Part shown: positions 8,061 through 14,298 of the stretch, in pieces
Layout: each line of letters opens with the position of its first letter
Numbering within the stretch: position 1 is the first letter of the stretch
DNA from: a virus
DNA length: 23,869 bases
Strand: one strand, 5' to 3'
IMG/VR virus record: IMGVR_UViG_3300011116_000615
Coordinates: 1 to 23,869 of that record
Translations under genes and position numbers: made by a program
The notes under the pieces: model-generated
Seen by the model: only the letters and a program-made list of their open reading frames with translations
What the model was told of the DNA's origin: nothing
Database searches by the model: none

Positions 8061-8465
8061 TTAACGATTAAAAAATCTTGTAATTAAAACGCCAAGGTTT
8101 ACGCCTGTAATGCGCTTAATATTTTCAGCAATAGAATAAAGCTCCACCGTTGCAATTAAAAACGCTGCCATGTACGTTATGTTAAATGGAAGAGAAAAAG
8201 TATTTCTTGCACCCTCGAATATAAGGATGCCACAAAAATACACAACTATCTTTTCCATTGTTCGGTAAAGCCCTTTGCTATTTATCTTTTGCTGCTCTTT
8301 CTTTGCTGCGATTATTCCGGTTCCCATATCCGCAAAAACCACAAAGATTGTAAAAATCAAAAATCCCTTTATTGGTATGAAGAAAGAAAAAATATATCCA
8401 CAGCAAATCGCGTATGTTATTTTCTCCCACCCAAGGTGCAAAAAGTTGATTAACGTTGCTTTCAT
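8061..8465 (-). CDS. Phage holin (toxin-secretion/phage lysis holin family, Phage_holin_4)
   Basis: Three to four membrane segments are visible in 134 aa (around YAICCGYIFSFFIPI, FLIFTIFVVFADMG, IVVYFCGILIF and YMAAFLIATVEL). The pattern ADMGTGIIAAKKEQQKINSK followed by RTMEKIVVYF and IAENIKRITG is characteristic of the Phage_holin_4_1 family. Holins make holes in the inner membrane at a set time and let the endolysin reach peptidoglycan. Its ATG overlaps the stop of the exported protein gene as TAATG. The amidase lies downstream in the same transcript, completing the lysis pair. Confidence 0.92.
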   Translation of the reverse strand: MKATLINFLHLGWEKITYAICCGYIFSFFIPIKGFLIFTIFVVFADMGTGIIAAKKEQQKINSKGLYRTMEKIVVYFCGILIFEGARNTFSLPFNITYMAAFLIATVELYSIAENIKRITGVNLGVLITRFFNR

Positions 8466-9067
8466 TATTCCTTTTTTATTAGCCTAACATCATTATCCAC
8501 GGTTGCAAATTTACCGTTAGCAAATTTGTATAAGTCGTATTTGACACCATTAAATGAAAAGCTAATTTGGTTTGTAAAAGTCGAGAGTAATAGGTTGGTG
8601 GAAATCGTATATACTTTGCCGTTATCAGGATTAAATATTAATCTTTTATTAGCATTCAACTGTATTTCACCAAGGATATTTTCACCTTTAAAATTCAATG
8701 TCCAATCACCAAGGAAAGCAGTTGAATCACGGAGTGCCGTTGATGTATATACAGGTCTGCCGCTTATCTGCTGGTGCAAATTGTTGTAATAATTAATACG
8801 CTTAACCGCTTTACTTTTTAAAATCAATGGCTTTGCATGAATGGCTAATGTGTTGCTTTGCCTTTCAGCATCGGTAACAAGGCTTTGAATGGCTGTTAAG
8901 CTATCCCCAAGTATTTGTTTATTTCCCGTTATCGTGCTATCGCTGAATGTAGTCATAGTAACAATGTAATAAATGTTACCTTGCTTTTGAATGTACACCG
9001 TATCGGTAACAACGTCTTGCGAAATAGCAAGAAAAGGAATGAGTAAAAAGAAAAGTATTTTTTTCAT
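8465..9067 (-). CDS. Exported protein of the tail-fibre/lysis region, 200 aa
   Basis: A clear signal peptide, MKKILFFLLIPFLAISQ, opens the protein, with likely cleavage after residue 16 or 17 and no lipobox Cys. A short helical section (about residues 52-100) follows, then a beta-rich C-terminal half with DWTLNFKGENILGEIQLN and ISFSFNGVKYDLYKF. It lies between the chaperone-tipped fibre and the holin, with one base separating it from the fibre stop. I do not recognise a family. It might be a fibre accessory protein or act in the periplasm at lysis. The signal peptide is unusual for a phage late protein and matches that of the adjacent fibre gene in style. Confidence 0.8.
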   Translation of the reverse strand: MKKILFFLLIPFLAISQDVVTDTVYIQKQGNIYYIVTMTTFSDSTITGNKQILGDSLTAIQSLVTDAERQSNTLAIHAKPLILKSKAVKRINYYNNLHQQISGRPVYTSTALRDSTAFLGDWTLNFKGENILGEIQLNANKRLIFNPDNGKVYTISTNLLLSTFTNQISFSFNGVKYDLYKFANGKFATVDNDVRLIKKE

Positions 9068-9068
9068 G

Positions 9069-10259
9069 TTATTTGTTTTCGAGGATTAAAATTCTTTGTT
9101 CAAGGGCCTTGATAAGGGCTTGTTGCTCCTGTATGGCTTTGGTTAAGATGGGTATTAAACTTTGATAATCAACGCCCATAAATTCATCAAAATGAACACT
9201 TTCAGGAATCAAAGTGCCAATGTCTTGAGCAATAAAACCAAGTTGTTGTTCACCGTTACTTTTATAAGTATATTTTACAGGCTGCATTTGAATAACCTCG
9301 TTTAAGCCATAATTTAAAGTTTGAATTTCATCTTTTAAATTATAATCAGACCTTGTCGTATATCCAGCCGCACTAACGCGCCCACCGACGTAAACGCTAT
9401 CAACAACGTGCAACTTATAACCACTTTGTGGAGTTGTCGTGCCAATGCCTACGTTGCCATTCCTATCAAATTTAACAATTTGCGAAAATGTTAGAGTGGC
9501 TCCTGCTCCTGAAGTATTATTTGATGATGTATAAAAATCATATTCTCCATCTATACATGCAAATCGAGTTGCATAACCATTCTGATAGTATTTAAATCCT
9601 CCTGAAAAATAACTATTTGTCCAAAATTCTCCTTGTGTTCCAAACCCAACAAAACTTGTACCAGCTAATAGTTGAATAGCTTTAAAATTAGTCCATGGAC
9701 TTGGAGAAACGCCAATACCTAAATTTCCATTTGCATCCAATGTCATTTTATTTGTTGTATTTGTTGAAAATCCAAGTGTGTTTGATGCAGGTAAATATAT
9801 TCCATTAGTTGGAATTGTTGAGCTTGTAGGTCTAAAATTTGCGCCTACAACTGCACTTGTAAATGTCTTATCTCCTCCAATGCTTTGCGTCGTTGTTAAA
9901 TCTACAAAGTTTTGCGTTGTGCTACCAGTTCCCCCATTTCCTAAAGGCAACACTCCCGTGACTTTTGTCGTTAAAGATAATTGCCCTTGCAAATTATTTA
10001 AGCTATCAACTACTCTATTCCATTTTGGCGTTGTTGATGCACGGTAAAGCCATATAGCTTCTGTAATTGTATCAAGAACAAGATAGGCAGATGTGTCTAA
10101 TTTACTTGTCATTAAATTAACCGTATCAGTTGTTCTTCCACGCCACACCAGCCCATCTGACGTTGTTTGTTCGCCCAGTGTTATCTTTTGATTTGCATTG
10201 CCTTGGTACTGTGCCAAAGCAAGGCAAGGGAAAAGGAGTAGGAAAAGGAGTTGTTTCAT
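9069..10259 (-). CDS. Tail fibre with C-terminal S74 intramolecular chaperone and a signal peptide, 396 aa
   Basis: The C terminus carries an intramolecular chaperone of endosialidase domain (peptidase S74). It shows TRSDYNLKDEI (302-312, with catalytic S304 and K309), PVKYTYK, QLGFIAQDIG (339-348) and a final coiled coil (about 372-395). Such domains trimerise fibres and then cut themselves off before the conserved Ser. The shaft includes NGNLGIGVSPSP and NGNVGIGTTTP, repeats typical of fibres. The start MKQLLFLLLFPCLALAQ is a good signal peptide, odd for a virion protein. Residues about 24-83 resemble a module in the next, larger fibre (shared QTTxDGLVWRG). Probably receptor-binding. Confidence 0.9.
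   Translation of the reverse strand: MKQLLFLLLFPCLALAQYQGNANQKITLGEQTTSDGLVWRGRTTDTVNLMTSKLDTSAYLVLDTITEAIWLYRASTTPKWNRVVDSLNNLQGQLSLTTKVTGVLPLGNGGTGSTTQNFVDLTTTQSIGGDKTFTSAVVGANFRPTSSTIPTNGIYLPASNTLGFSTNTTNKMTLDANGNLGIGVSPSPWTNFKAIQLLAGTSFVGFGTQGEFWTNSYFSGGFKYYQNGYATRFACIDGEYDFYTSSNNTSGAGATLTFSQIVKFDRNGNVGIGTTTPQSGYKLHVVDSVYVGGRVSAAGYTTRSDYNLKDEIQTLNYGLNEVIQMQPVKYTYKSNGEQQLGFIAQDIGTLIPESVHFDEFMGVDYQSLIPILTKAIQEQQALIKALEQRILILENK
10011..10190 (-). repeat. Fibre N-terminal module, copy 2 (in the 396-aa fibre)
   Basis: Residues 24-83 (KITLGEQTTSDGLVWRG, then LVLDT and WNRV) align with residues 72-128 of the 1216-aa fibre. In both proteins the module directly follows the hydrophobic export-like segment, so segment and module appear to have been copied together. 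Confidence 0.75.
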
Positions 10260-10276: not shown

Positions 10277-13200
10277 TTAATTACCAGCCATTTTTTGCCA
10301 ATACGTAGAACCAGTACTAATAAGCGTACACCACTTTCCGGGCCCTGCTCCTAAAATTTGACTATTTATACTTCCATCTAATTGTTGAATATTAGTAGCA
10401 TTACTTGTAATTGAGCCATTTCCAATATTTAAAACATGTATTTCTCTACCCGGAAAATCTGAGGCAGTTGGCAAAGTAAATGTAGCAAGATCGGAACGTC
10501 CCCATCTTATCCAAGTATCATTATCTAATACAATATATGTAGCAGCACTTCCAGCAACGTATTTTCTTCTAATATATCCTTCTCTATTATCAATATCATT
10601 TTGCATAACTACATTTCCCGTAAACGTTTTATTCCCGGCAAAACTTTGAGTAGTTGTATTCACCACTCCCGATGCTCCTGTACCTGCATCAGCAATAGTT
10701 ATACTTGGTGTAGTTGTACCATTTGCTACTGATATAGGTAAAGTACCTGTAACATTTGTTACTGTGCCACTGCCCCCTGTTGCGCTCAATGTGCCGCTTG
10801 ACAAAGATAATCCGCTGCCTATTGTAACTGTGGCAAATCTATCCGTAGAAGATAAACCAGCAAGCCTTGTTGCTACATAGGTATAATCTTTAAATACTGC
10901 TCTCGCATTAAATTGTGTTATACCTTCAAATACCTTATCTCCGCTAAATTGTTGTGTACCACTTGCTGTTACTATTCCAGCTACACCAAAACCTGCATCT
11001 GCCACGCTAATAATTGGTGTAGTCGTTGGGTTGGCTACTAAAATAGCACCGCTACCGCTTACACTTGTGACTGTACCTGTACCTGCACCAATCGCTGTTC
11101 TCGTATCAGCTCCATTTAAAAGAGTGATTGTATTATCTGTATTTACTTTGATAAATTTTTCAGATACGCTATTGGTAAGTCCAAACAAAGATTTACCAAC
11201 TGCCGTCGCTCCAAAATTAGTCAATGCACCGTCGGCTGTTGTTGCACCTGTACCACCATTTAACAAAGGTAAAGCAGTGCCACTATATGTCAATGCTAAA
11301 TTGCCGTTTATTGTTACAGGCGAACCGCTTACGGTAAATATTGAAGGTGCCGTTAATCCTACACTTGTAACTGTGCCAGTGCCTCCTCCTGATGTGTAAT
11401 TAGGTATATTTAAAGTAGTACCATTAAATGTAGCTAATCCAGTTGTTCCATTCGTGGTGAGTGAAATTGTATTTTGCTTGTTATTAAAAGTATTCCAATC
11501 TGCAGAAGTTAAAATACCACTTACAGTACTACTCGCATTACTTAAAGCATTTTGCTTATTATTAAATGTAGTCCAATCCGTAGAAGTCAAATAACCATTT
11601 ACGCTCCCAGTAGCTGCATTTATTGATAAAATAGGCGTAGTTGTTTTATTGGTAACCGAAATTGGCGTACCAACAGCCGCATCTACCTCTGTAACTGTAC
11701 CTGCACCAATGGCACTTCTAAAAGAAGCTGCTGATAATGCCGTGACTGTATTATCCGCATTAAATCGAGGGAAAGAAATAGTAGATGGATTAGTTAAAGT
11801 AAACATTGATTGCCCTATGGTTGTACCTCCTAAACTTGTTCGCCCTGTCGCTGCTACAAGTCCTGTACTTTCTCCATCCCATTTTAACCTATCTGTAAAT
11901 GCTATATTCCAATTACTTGAATTGTTTGGAATAGATGATGTCCAAGTTGTCCCGGTGCTTAAAGCTATACCTGCCTCTGGATATACAGGATTTGCTGTTT
12001 GTGAAACGCCTGCAGAACCAATGCCAGATACTGTGACTAAAGTATAGTTTTCACCTACTTTATAAGATGTAGCTGCTATTTTAATTTTATTTGTATCAAT
12101 AACGGAGTATTGGTCATTTATAAGTAATTGTCCATTGCGAAAGAGTAATATAAATGCCCTTAATTGTATAGGAAATTTATTTGTAATTGTCCAAGTCAAT
12201 GTATCTGTTGTAACATTATTATATTCTTGCTTAAGGATTTTAATTGTGTCATTGCCAATTCTAACTTTTACAATGCTATCTCTAACATAATTGTAAACAG
12301 TATTAGAATCAACTCTTAAAGTTCCTGTTGTGGTAATACTTCCACCTGTTAAGCCGTATGCCGTTGCTACGCTTGTAACGGTGCCATTTCCTTTAGCATT
12401 TATTCTATTGGACAAAGAAGCCGTGTCAGTTGTATTTAATTTACTTGCAAATCTTGAAGTAAGGTTCAATAAACTTGTATCCGTCAACTCCATTAAAACA
12501 GATAAATCAGCCGAAACCGTACCAGTCGTTGTTATTGGATTTGGGCTAACTGTAATTCCTGTCCCTGCTGAAATAGACGTTAAACTTCCCGATCCTCCAC
12601 CACTTCCTGCACCGCCACCACCTTTAGGAAATATAACAGTATAATTTTCGCCTATTTTATATGAGGTTGCCGCAATGACTACCGATGTTTTGGTAGGTAT
12701 AGTATATTGAGATGGCAGCAATATTTGACCATTACGGTAAACTTGAACAACCTTCACACCACCGGGAACTAATGTATCTGTTTGCGTCCAAGTTAATGTT
12801 GATGATTGAACGTTGCTAAAATCTTCACGAGCATAAAATCTTCCAGCAGTATCGACATAACTTTTTTTTGCATAGGTTGAAAGCATTGAAGCCGTGTCAC
12901 TCACCAAAAGTGCAGCCGTTGTATCTCGCCATAATCCACCTGAATAATATAAAGTAGCACCTGTAACTGGATTAGTTATTCGAGTGTCGTGAAGCTCGTC
13001 AAGCTCCTGCCCGTTACGAATTTTAACAAACAATTCTCCCGATCCGTTATTACTTTTGACACATACGCCAATATATACGCTGTGTTGTGGTGCTTGCGGC
13101 TTTGTGGAAGTCAATGCACCTGCCACCGTTGGCGATAAATACACCGCGCTATCTTCTGTTAAGGCTGATGTGTTTAAGCCTGTTATTAAGCCTTCGGTAA

Positions 13201-13927
13201 TAATAAAACCGCTTGCATTGTTAGCAATAGCCTCCGCGACCACGCCAAAAGTATTAGCCGAAAAAGCATCCGTTACCGCTAAGCCTTTTGCCACTGTTAT
13301 TCGATTTCCTTGACTTCCTGACAGATAAACCACATCGCCCTTATTAAGCGTTGCACCTGTTCTATTGTTCACTCGTTGGTGTAATTGTTGCCCTATAACA
13401 TTGGTAACATTACCACCTTTTAAGCCTTGTATCAAAGAACCCTGTGTATCATTGTATTCAACTTCACCTACTCCCACCGTGCCATTCTTTGTCGTGTTGA
13501 AGGTAATTGAATCAAAAGGCATAGTTAAACCTTGCGCACCGCCGACCAAGTTCCAAACATTGGAGGTAAAATCAAACGTATAAAATTTAAGGTTAACCGT
13601 ATCAAGAATCACCCACGCGTTTTGATTGTTTATCGGTTGAATGGAAGCCGTGTCAGACAATGCCCCACGCCAAACAAGCCCGTCGCCAGTAGTCTGGAAA
13701 CCTAATCTTTGTTTGTTGCCTGTATTTGGGAATTGGGCAATAGCAAATGTGGAGGCTAAAATAACAAAGGTAATAACAAGCCCTTGCCGTTTATTACCTA
13801 CTTTGTCAATAGCTTTTCCAATAAACTTTCGGCCTATTCCCATGACTAATTCGTTAGCTAAAACTTTGGCAATATCTCCCATTGCTTTTAAAAACTTTCT
13901 TTCCTTTTTTGGCTTTATTTCTTCCAT
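10277..13927 (-). CDS. Large modular tail fibre, 1216 aa
   Basis: Residues 1-48 are basic and helical. Residues 49-65 (GLVITFVILASTFAIAQ) form a membrane/signal-like segment. Residues 72-128 hold a module shared with the 396-aa fibre. Copies of a beta module lie at 374-435 and 571-635 (core VYRNGQ, SQYTI, KIGENYTV). A Gly-rich hinge (GGGGAGSGGGSGS) sits at 436-448. From about 515 onward come repeats beginning GTVTSV or a variant (515, 743, 851, 951, 1054), plus two LTSxDWxTFNNKQN units. The C-terminal section (about 1110-1216) is non-repetitive and probably forms the receptor-binding tip. The start forms TAATG with the adaptor gene. Host recognition is inferred from architecture and position. 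Confidence 0.88.
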   Translation of the reverse strand: MEEIKPKKERKFLKAMGDIAKVLANELVMGIGRKFIGKAIDKVGNKRQGLVITFVILASTFAIAQFPNTGNKQRLGFQTTGDGLVWRGALSDTASIQPINNQNAWVILDTVNLKFYTFDFTSNVWNLVGGAQGLTMPFDSITFNTTKNGTVGVGEVEYNDTQGSLIQGLKGGNVTNVIGQQLHQRVNNRTGATLNKGDVVYLSGSQGNRITVAKGLAVTDAFSANTFGVVAEAIANNASGFIITEGLITGLNTSALTEDSAVYLSPTVAGALTSTKPQAPQHSVYIGVCVKSNNGSGELFVKIRNGQELDELHDTRITNPVTGATLYYSGGLWRDTTAALLVSDTASMLSTYAKKSYVDTAGRFYAREDFSNVQSSTLTWTQTDTLVPGGVKVVQVYRNGQILLPSQYTIPTKTSVVIAATSYKIGENYTVIFPKGGGGAGSGGGSGSLTSISAGTGITVSPNPITTTGTVSADLSVLMELTDTSLLNLTSRFASKLNTTDTASLSNRINAKGNGTVTSVATAYGLTGGSITTTGTLRVDSNTVYNYVRDSIVKVRIGNDTIKILKQEYNNVTTDTLTWTITNKFPIQLRAFILLFRNGQLLINDQYSVIDTNKIKIAATSYKVGENYTLVTVSGIGSAGVSQTANPVYPEAGIALSTGTTWTSSIPNNSSNWNIAFTDRLKWDGESTGLVAATGRTSLGGTTIGQSMFTLTNPSTISFPRFNADNTVTALSAASFRSAIGAGTVTEVDAAVGTPISVTNKTTTPILSINAATGSVNGYLTSTDWTTFNNKQNALSNASSTVSGILTSADWNTFNNKQNTISLTTNGTTGLATFNGTTLNIPNYTSGGGTGTVTSVGLTAPSIFTVSGSPVTINGNLALTYSGTALPLLNGGTGATTADGALTNFGATAVGKSLFGLTNSVSEKFIKVNTDNTITLLNGADTRTAIGAGTGTVTSVSGSGAILVANPTTTPIISVADAGFGVAGIVTASGTQQFSGDKVFEGITQFNARAVFKDYTYVATRLAGLSSTDRFATVTIGSGLSLSSGTLSATGGSGTVTNVTGTLPISVANGTTTPSITIADAGTGASGVVNTTTQSFAGNKTFTGNVVMQNDIDNREGYIRRKYVAGSAATYIVLDNDTWIRWGRSDLATFTLPTASDFPGREIHVLNIGNGSITSNATNIQQLDGSINSQILGAGPGKWCTLISTGSTYWQKMAGN
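10628..11701 (-). repeat. Repeated GTVTSV beta-shaft units
   Basis: Within the large fibre, residues 743-1100 contain repeated units beginning GTVT(S/E/N)V at 743, 851, 951 and 1054, about 100 residues apart in the last three. Later parts such as SVANGTTTPSITIADAGTG and TTQSFAGNKTF recur in similar form. They read like tandem trimeric beta-shaft modules, which can expand or contract by recombination. Confidence 0.75.
11471..11590 (-). repeat. Tandem LTSxDWxTFNNKQN units in the fibre
   Basis: Two copies start at residues 780 and 806 of the large fibre, 26 residues apart: LTSTDWTTFNNKQN and LTSADWNTFNNKQN. The DNA is also visibly repeated (TTTTGCTTGTTATTAAA and TTTTGCTTATTATTAAA on the plus strand). 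Confidence 0.85.
12023..12217 (-). repeat. Beta module copy 2 (large fibre residues 571-635)
   Basis: Core positions DTLTWTI, LLFRNGQLLINDQYSV, IKIAATSYKVGENYTL match the other two copies at 12623-12808 and 13939-14133. The pattern is LTWT, then xxxNGQxL, xxQY(T/S), and G-x-NY-x-(V/L). Confidence 0.8.
12623..12808 (-). repeat. Beta module copy 1 (large fibre residues 374-435)
   Basis: Core positions STLTWTQ, VQVYRNGQILLPSQYTI and VIAATSYKIGENYTVIF. This copy lies just before the Gly-rich hinge. It shares IAATSYKxGENYT with copy 2, and LTWTQ and SQYTI with the copy in the adaptor protein. Confidence 0.8.
13544..13714 (-). repeat. Fibre N-terminal module, copy 1 (in the 1216-aa fibre)
   Basis: Residues 72-128 (KQRLGFQTTGDGLVWRG, then VILDT and WNLV) match the module just after the signal peptide of the 396-aa fibre. 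Seen directly by comparing the two translations. Confidence 0.75.
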
Positions 13928-14298
13928 TATACTATGTTTATTGCAAAGACAATATAATTACTGCCATCGTAATGTGTGTTTGAATCTATCGTGATCGTCG
14001 CAGGTGCCGTAATAGTATATTGACTATCTATTAATTTCTGCCCATTCTGATACACATGAACCGAAGCATTTAAGTTAGTCACTGGCAGTTTGCCATTGTT
14101 TTGTGTCCATGTTAATACATTGGAGGAAGTATTAAGAAATTCTTGACTAAAAATAGAAACAGCAGAGCCATTTACCGTCACATTATTTATCGTTTCAGTG
14201 ACATTATTATTTACCACTCCACCACTTCCGGCATTGTTTGCCACCTGGTTAAAGTCGCGAGGTTTTGATAATACTGTGCGTTCTGTGTAGTTAGGCAT
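13927..14298 (-). CDS. Fibre adaptor/baseplate protein, 123 aa, with one beta module
   Basis: The N-terminal 50 residues are polar and Asn/Val-rich (GGVVNNNVTETINNVTVNG). Residues 56-120 are a copy of the beta module found twice in the large fibre (VLTWTQ, VHVYQNGQKLIDSQYTI, GSNYIVFA). The gene lies between the tail hub and the large fibre, overlapping the hub gene by 8 bases and the fibre gene by one (TAATG). A linker between tail tip and fibre is a reasonable inference; no catalytic motif is seen. Confidence 0.75.
   Translation of the reverse strand: MPNYTERTVLSKPRDFNQVANNAGSGGVVNNNVTETINNVTVNGSAVSIFSQEFLNTSSNVLTWTQNNGKLPVTNLNASVHVYQNGQKLIDSQYTITAPATITIDSNTHYDGSNYIVFAINIV
13939..14133 (-). 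repeat. Beta module copy 3 (adaptor residues 56-120)
   Basis: This copy is in a different gene from copies 1 and 2 but keeps VLTWTQ, VYQNGQKLIDSQYTI and the closing GSNYIVF. That suggests a duplicated domain used both in the adaptor and inside the fibre. Confidence 0.8.

Follow-up and report, generated by a model that had tools for sequence, protein, structure and literature searches.

The closest described systems are branched receptor-binding complexes, which in the cited papers, to the extent of their excerpted text, belong to enterobacterial phages. As an excerpt of the TSP4 paper describes them, the domains XD2 and XD3 are jellyrolls through which trimeric spikes touch one another; binding of gp63.1 in phage G7C requires XD3 of gp66, and the role of gp66 XD2 is given as unknown (PMC8825819). 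Excerpts of two further papers present K1-5 gp37 as a short adapter (PMC6872550) and extra XD domains as assumed to serve branching (PMC10253068). The same logic appears to operate in an uncharacterised phage group that includes IMG/VR virus record IMGVR_UViG_3300011116_000615, a 23,869-base stretch analysed over its whole length (the window). Here, one beta module of about 70 residues occurs twice in a 1216-residue fibre (F1 and F2) and once in an adjacent 123-residue protein (S), and the three copies are homologous. The module is likely a docking domain of the T4 gp10 XD2/XD3 type, with F1 and F2 holding a separately encoded second fibre and the copy in S seating the main fibre.

All three copies lie on the minus strand, with F1 at 12620..12826, F2 at 12023..12229, and the S copy at 13933..14145. 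The sequence-only reading of this DNA had proposed such a module in two stretches of the fibre and in the small protein, and minus-strand translation, pairwise BLASTP, and a profile search with shuffled controls confirm it, although the boundaries are better placed as given here. The module had also been described as nearly the whole small gene, which is overstated because it covers about 71 of 123 residues. The sequence cores that the copies were said to share hold in part: the second copy deviates, reading LFRNGQ and DQYSV, and the core IAATSYKxGENYT is present in both fibre copies only, the small protein having IDSNTHYDGSNYI instead. In pairwise BLASTP, the copies align at E 5e-15, 1e-12, and 9e-12, with identities of 49, 40, and 37% over 39-60 residues. 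A profile built solely from the small protein and 14 relatives, run against the window's frames, matches both fibre copies (E 8e-11, 36.4 bits; E 6e-12, 40.1 bits), while the next best frame reaches 4.2 bits (E 0.81) and the controls, 1000 shuffled fibres and the reversed fibre, do not exceed 4.8 bits.

Among the first 160 relatives, a short protein carries the module once, and the fibre mostly carries it twice and, in three loci, three times. Between phages, copies at equivalent positions share 74-80% identity on average and those at different positions 31-37%, so the duplication is older than this phage group; the idea of one module duplicated across two genes is thereby supported. The two fibre modules stand about 130 residues apart. 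In the three-module fibres (L104, L096, and L125), the first copy is closer to F1 (mean identity 55%) than to F2 (44%).

Structures were predicted for the window proteins aligned with their relatives, and F1, F2, and S show one identical strand order. In the small-protein model, the module (residues 51-120) has block means of the predicted local distance difference test (pLDDT) of 69-87, and residues 1-45 fall below 50; the fibre-module models have block means of 55-93, with low values at loops and ends and an unreliable inter-module linker. The first VIA row is XD2 of phage CBA120 TSP4 (residues 187-250) for both the S model (Z 7.5, root-mean-square deviation 1.9 over 62 residues) and the F2 model (Z 8.6, 1.8 over 63 residues). 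Lower rows hold T7-type fibre N-termini, T5-type neck proteins, and other phage tail parts, followed further down by bacterial pilins and an enzyme domain. When the module profile is compared with nine XD2 sequences by hhalign, P is 9e-5 and the score 26.8, against 19.8 for the best of 200 column shuffles and a P of 0.27 for the reversed control; this sequence-profile similarity agrees independently with the predicted fold. The module is accordingly predicted to be a jellyroll like XD2 and XD3, the T4 gp10-like domains by which branched tailspikes dock. Fold lists also contain galacto-N-biose phosphorylase, pilin, aminopeptidase, and spore-fibre rows, which were judged to reflect common beta-sandwich resemblance.

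The second fibre, a 396-residue protein with a Peptidase_S74 chaperone domain (PF13884, E 3e-10), is encoded at 9069..10259 on the minus strand, and its gene is coupled to F1/F2. Three scans that used the fibre N-terminus alone, pooled with earlier loci, gave 385 fibre-bearing loci; the 80 best candidates of any one scan were retained, and the sample leans to near relatives. The count was made on those distinct complete fibres, 147 in all, for which 1200 bases or more of downstream sequence were available; it excludes frames lacking KE close to their start, the three-module fibres among them. Of the fibres that bear modules, 84 of 84 are followed by a second fibre gene, and of those that lack modules, 0 of 63; the best module score among the latter is 3.4 bits. 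The same division appears with no gene model at all, as the gap from fibre end to holin is 1366-2714 bases with modules (holin seen in 74 of 84) and -142 to 631 bases without them (63 of 63). When the N-terminus is disregarded, 99 distinct complete frames have two modules or, in L104, L096, and L125, three; the second gene is present in 99 of 99, and the same laxer rule for recognising it still finds it with none of the 63 module-less fibres. The 200-residue protein encoded next (8465-9067, minus strand), which has a hydrophobic start, tracks the modules less closely and is present in some module-less loci. In L071, L254, and L395, all without modules, a 479-residue part of the main fibre chain itself resembles a second-fibre body (53-56% identity), which looks like a fusion of the two fibres. 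Weaker matches to second-fibre bodies, at 25-39%, occur in some fibres of both kinds. Together with the predicted fold, this coupling makes it probable that the fibre modules are sockets by which the tail takes up an extra fibre: F1 and F2 would be branch points that hold the second receptor-binding fibre.

An alternative account of the coupling is that modules and second fibre gene, being neighbours, are swapped as one recombination cassette without physical contact, for which their adjacency, the frequent switching of module state, and the shared N-terminal and tip stretches as possible crossover sites all speak. On the best tree of the 740-residue protein encoded in the same tail block (81 of 98 rows of small-gene context), the module state switched 18 times, and the second gene changed along with it in 11 of 11 supported independent pairs (p 0.001). 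Between modules and second gene, the DNA encodes the fibre tip, and this intervening tip is not confined to one state: for 62 of the 63 fibres lacking modules, a relative of the tip exists in a module-bearing fibre, for seven of them at 90% identity or more, and L072 and L090 share theirs at 97%, while they are 84% identical over residues 1-366 and divergent in the module-holding stretch. In a tree of the largest tip family (82 fibres), 16 switches were found, and again 11 of 11 supported pairs agree with the second gene (p 0.001), L102 being taken as a fibre that has this gene; three further families have one module state only. Tips are shared between both forms, yet modules and second gene stay together with no mismatch seen, and hitch-hiking in one cassette is improbable as the whole explanation. 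Somewhat less probable again is that the modules are shaft domains setting fibre length or stiffness, with the second fibre attached elsewhere on the tail. Module-bearing fibres are indeed longer (median 1214 versus 755 residues), and the fold is common among phage tail proteins, but a difference in length does not by itself account for a link with a second gene that is all or none, and long module-less fibres without a second gene exist (L071, 1365 residues; L254, 1371 residues).

The sequence-only reading had suggested, as one possibility, yet another arrangement, in which the small protein and F1/F2 dock like with like. The same module does occur in two adjacent, overlapping genes, and an XD2-XD2 contact has been proposed for TSP2 and TSP4 in the excerpted text of a further paper (PMC8432352). 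However, when the small gene was used to sample 80 loci, a fibre frame was found to follow it in 77, and the 56 complete fibres among these divide into 27 with two modules and 29 with none. Gene context and fibre modules are likewise independent: 54 fibres with and 44 without modules stand in small-gene context and 22 with and 17 without in the other context (Fisher p = 1.0; 10 of the 147 fibres had no assigned context). The small gene is not found preferentially with module-bearing fibres, so a meeting of module with module is unsupported; like-with-like docking cannot be the general way in which small protein and fibre meet, and such docking of the small protein with F1/F2 is very improbable. 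In the other context, the portal gene is followed by one for a DUF6712 protein, module-bearing fibres come after it, and the small gene is not beside them. When 16 records of that context, hand-picked from large contigs, were searched whole with the small-protein profile, 15 had the small-protein module in a frame of 686-822 residues. In the four such frames that were read (L431-L434, a protein of about 816 residues), the module is at the C-terminal end and is 41-50% identical to the small protein, matching its residues 40-117 in three and 7-117 in one. A relationship between the 740- and ~816-residue proteins was undetectable by hhalign (P 0.17, with only 4 sequences on one side). The small-protein module thus sits on another virion gene in both contexts, and the constant pair is that module and the fibre N-terminus, which suggests that the S-type module binds the fibre N-terminus.

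Under the preferred docking reading, the module of S would be a tail-side socket seating the conserved N-terminus of the main fibre, and S itself (13927..14298, minus strand) a proposed tail-side adaptor. That N-terminus (residues 1-95; 13643..13927, minus strand) is common by alignment to module-bearing and module-less fibres and is present in 77 of 77 fibre frames behind the small gene. Homology between the N-terminal domains of a main fibre and its own second fibre was seen in all 83 pairs compared, with a median identity of 40% over 72 columns. In the window, residues 68-128 of the main fibre (13544..13726, minus strand) match residues 21-83 of the second fibre (10011..10199, minus strand) in BLASTP at E 1e-9, with 38% identity over 63 columns. 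The conserved consensus stands behind AxAQ in 76 of 83 second genes, and this stretch of the second fibre presumably docks. Because they are homologous, the two domains are candidate plugs for one kind of socket. One may go further and imagine a one-socket, one-plug kit, in which the module is the socket on the tail (in S or at the C-terminus of the ~816-residue protein) and on the fibre (F1, F2), and the N-terminal domain is the plug on both fibres, presumably trimeric; this extension is tentative and rather less probable than the docking reading itself. If true, the complex could grow by adding sockets and plugged fibres.

Several observations weigh against the docking reading. The best Foldseek E-values against the PDB are modest at about 2e-3, VIA cautions that a Z below 8 may reflect merely a common arrangement, the XD2 profile match spans 29 columns only, and the module gives no profile match with the single T7 gp17 sequence (P 0.28). 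In the other gene context, nine changes of module state yield only four supported pairs, all agreeing (p 0.125), and two smaller tip families yield only one and two supported pairs. Counts are not one to one, since two modules, or three in L125, are seen with one second fibre, and linked recombination could lie behind part of the coupling. The computed evidence comprises homology of the three copies, predicted folds, and gene linkage.

No Pfam, PHROGs, or NCBIfam model exceeds its cut-off for the window's copies. PF07550 (Shr-like_HID) scores 14.3-17.7 bits on them against a gathering cut-off of 22.3 and matches 13 of 18 module copies weakly (best E 1.3e-4). PHROGs at E up to 1 returns no family for the fibre, the small protein, or the 740-residue protein, and its best E for the 18 module copies is 0.04; NCBIfam gives two matches to the small protein, far below cut-off. 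The T7 tail fibre N-terminal family PF03906 is not among the Pfam matches at E up to 1. A search of 50,697 phage records (E limit 0.01) gave no match to the small protein, and with an E limit of 10, tblastn searches of phage records with the module found 2 and 4 records, with best E of 4 and 6. Among solved structures searched by module-profile sequence, a VEGF receptor (E 0.4) and then dynein came best, and both were judged chance. A literature search found no paper describing these proteins, judged by titles and the beginnings of abstracts, which is no proof of absence. A module match also occurs in L230 (NBNH01000018.1), a 4-kb contig of a metagenome-assembled genome named Actinomycetales, possibly a misbinned phage contig.

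The window has a GC content of 36% and encodes an HK97-type head block, with prohead protease (PF04586), capsid (PF05065), connector (PF05135), and head completion (PF05521) proteins, as well as a tail tube protein (PF06199), a tape measure protein (PF20155), and a lysis block of holin (PF05105) and amidase (PF01520). On the minus strand, from tape measure to holin, follow the 740-residue protein, S, the main fibre (10277..13927), the Peptidase_S74 protein, and the 200-residue protein. The stop codon of S overlaps the ATG of the fibre by its A (TGATG), and among 124 loci in which the two genes are neighbours, the stop-to-ATG distance is 0 in 122. Residues 139-333 of the main fibre (12929-13513, minus strand) match fibre proteins in 16 phage records from several hosts and form a shared fibre domain preceding the modules. 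A hydrophobic start resembling a secretion signal is seen on the second fibre, on the 200-residue protein, and, after about 50 mostly charged residues, on the main fibre. Main fibres have a hydrophobic 13-residue stretch in 147 of 147 cases and an AxA-like site in 94 of 147; for second fibres these figures are 83 of 83 and 80 of 83. Such N-termini are odd for phage tail proteins, and the adsorption complex may pass through, or assemble at, the host envelope.

Branched-fibre systems are an already known type, and what is new here is a variant in an uncharacterised phage group whose known members are metagenome-derived virus contigs; 379 candidate stretches encode the fibre N-terminus. The repeated natural switching between one-fibre and two-fibre forms reveals which domain accompanies the extra fibre. 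Two similar UniProt entries come from uncultured Caudovirales phages, and both are called just "Uncharacterized protein": A0A6J5MD84 (123 residues) is 93% identical to the small protein in a structure alignment, and A0A6J5MHG6 (1238 residues), which is probably a fibre, matches over 112 columns at 26%.

Among known systems, T7 gp17-type fibre N-terminal domains have a similar predicted fold (7ey9_c, Z 7.0 and 8.5), but no sequence match to them was found, and they occupy a different place in the fibre. The module resembles XD2/XD3 of CBA120 TSP4 and G7C gp66, as the excerpted TSP4 paper presents them (PMC8825819), in its predicted fold and in a weak but shuffle-tested profile similarity. As in that account, the modules sit in a main receptor-binding protein accompanied by a further one, and as in G7C gp66, two such domains go with one partner. 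Unlike TSP4/gp66, the present system has no recognised XD1, its two modules lie well apart, an extra module copy is carried on a small gene of its own, and both fibres have signal-like hydrophobic N-termini. In the excerpted account of PMC6872550, K1-5 gp37 is, like S, a short protein with little beyond a T4gp10-like docking domain, but gp37 has two docking subdomains that take two spikes, and one module was found in S. The Klebsiella KP32/KP34 anchor-branch systems of the same account share with this locus a conserved N-terminal stretch on the second proteins (PMC6872550); here, unlike there, the N-terminal domain of the second fibre is homologous to that of the main fibre.
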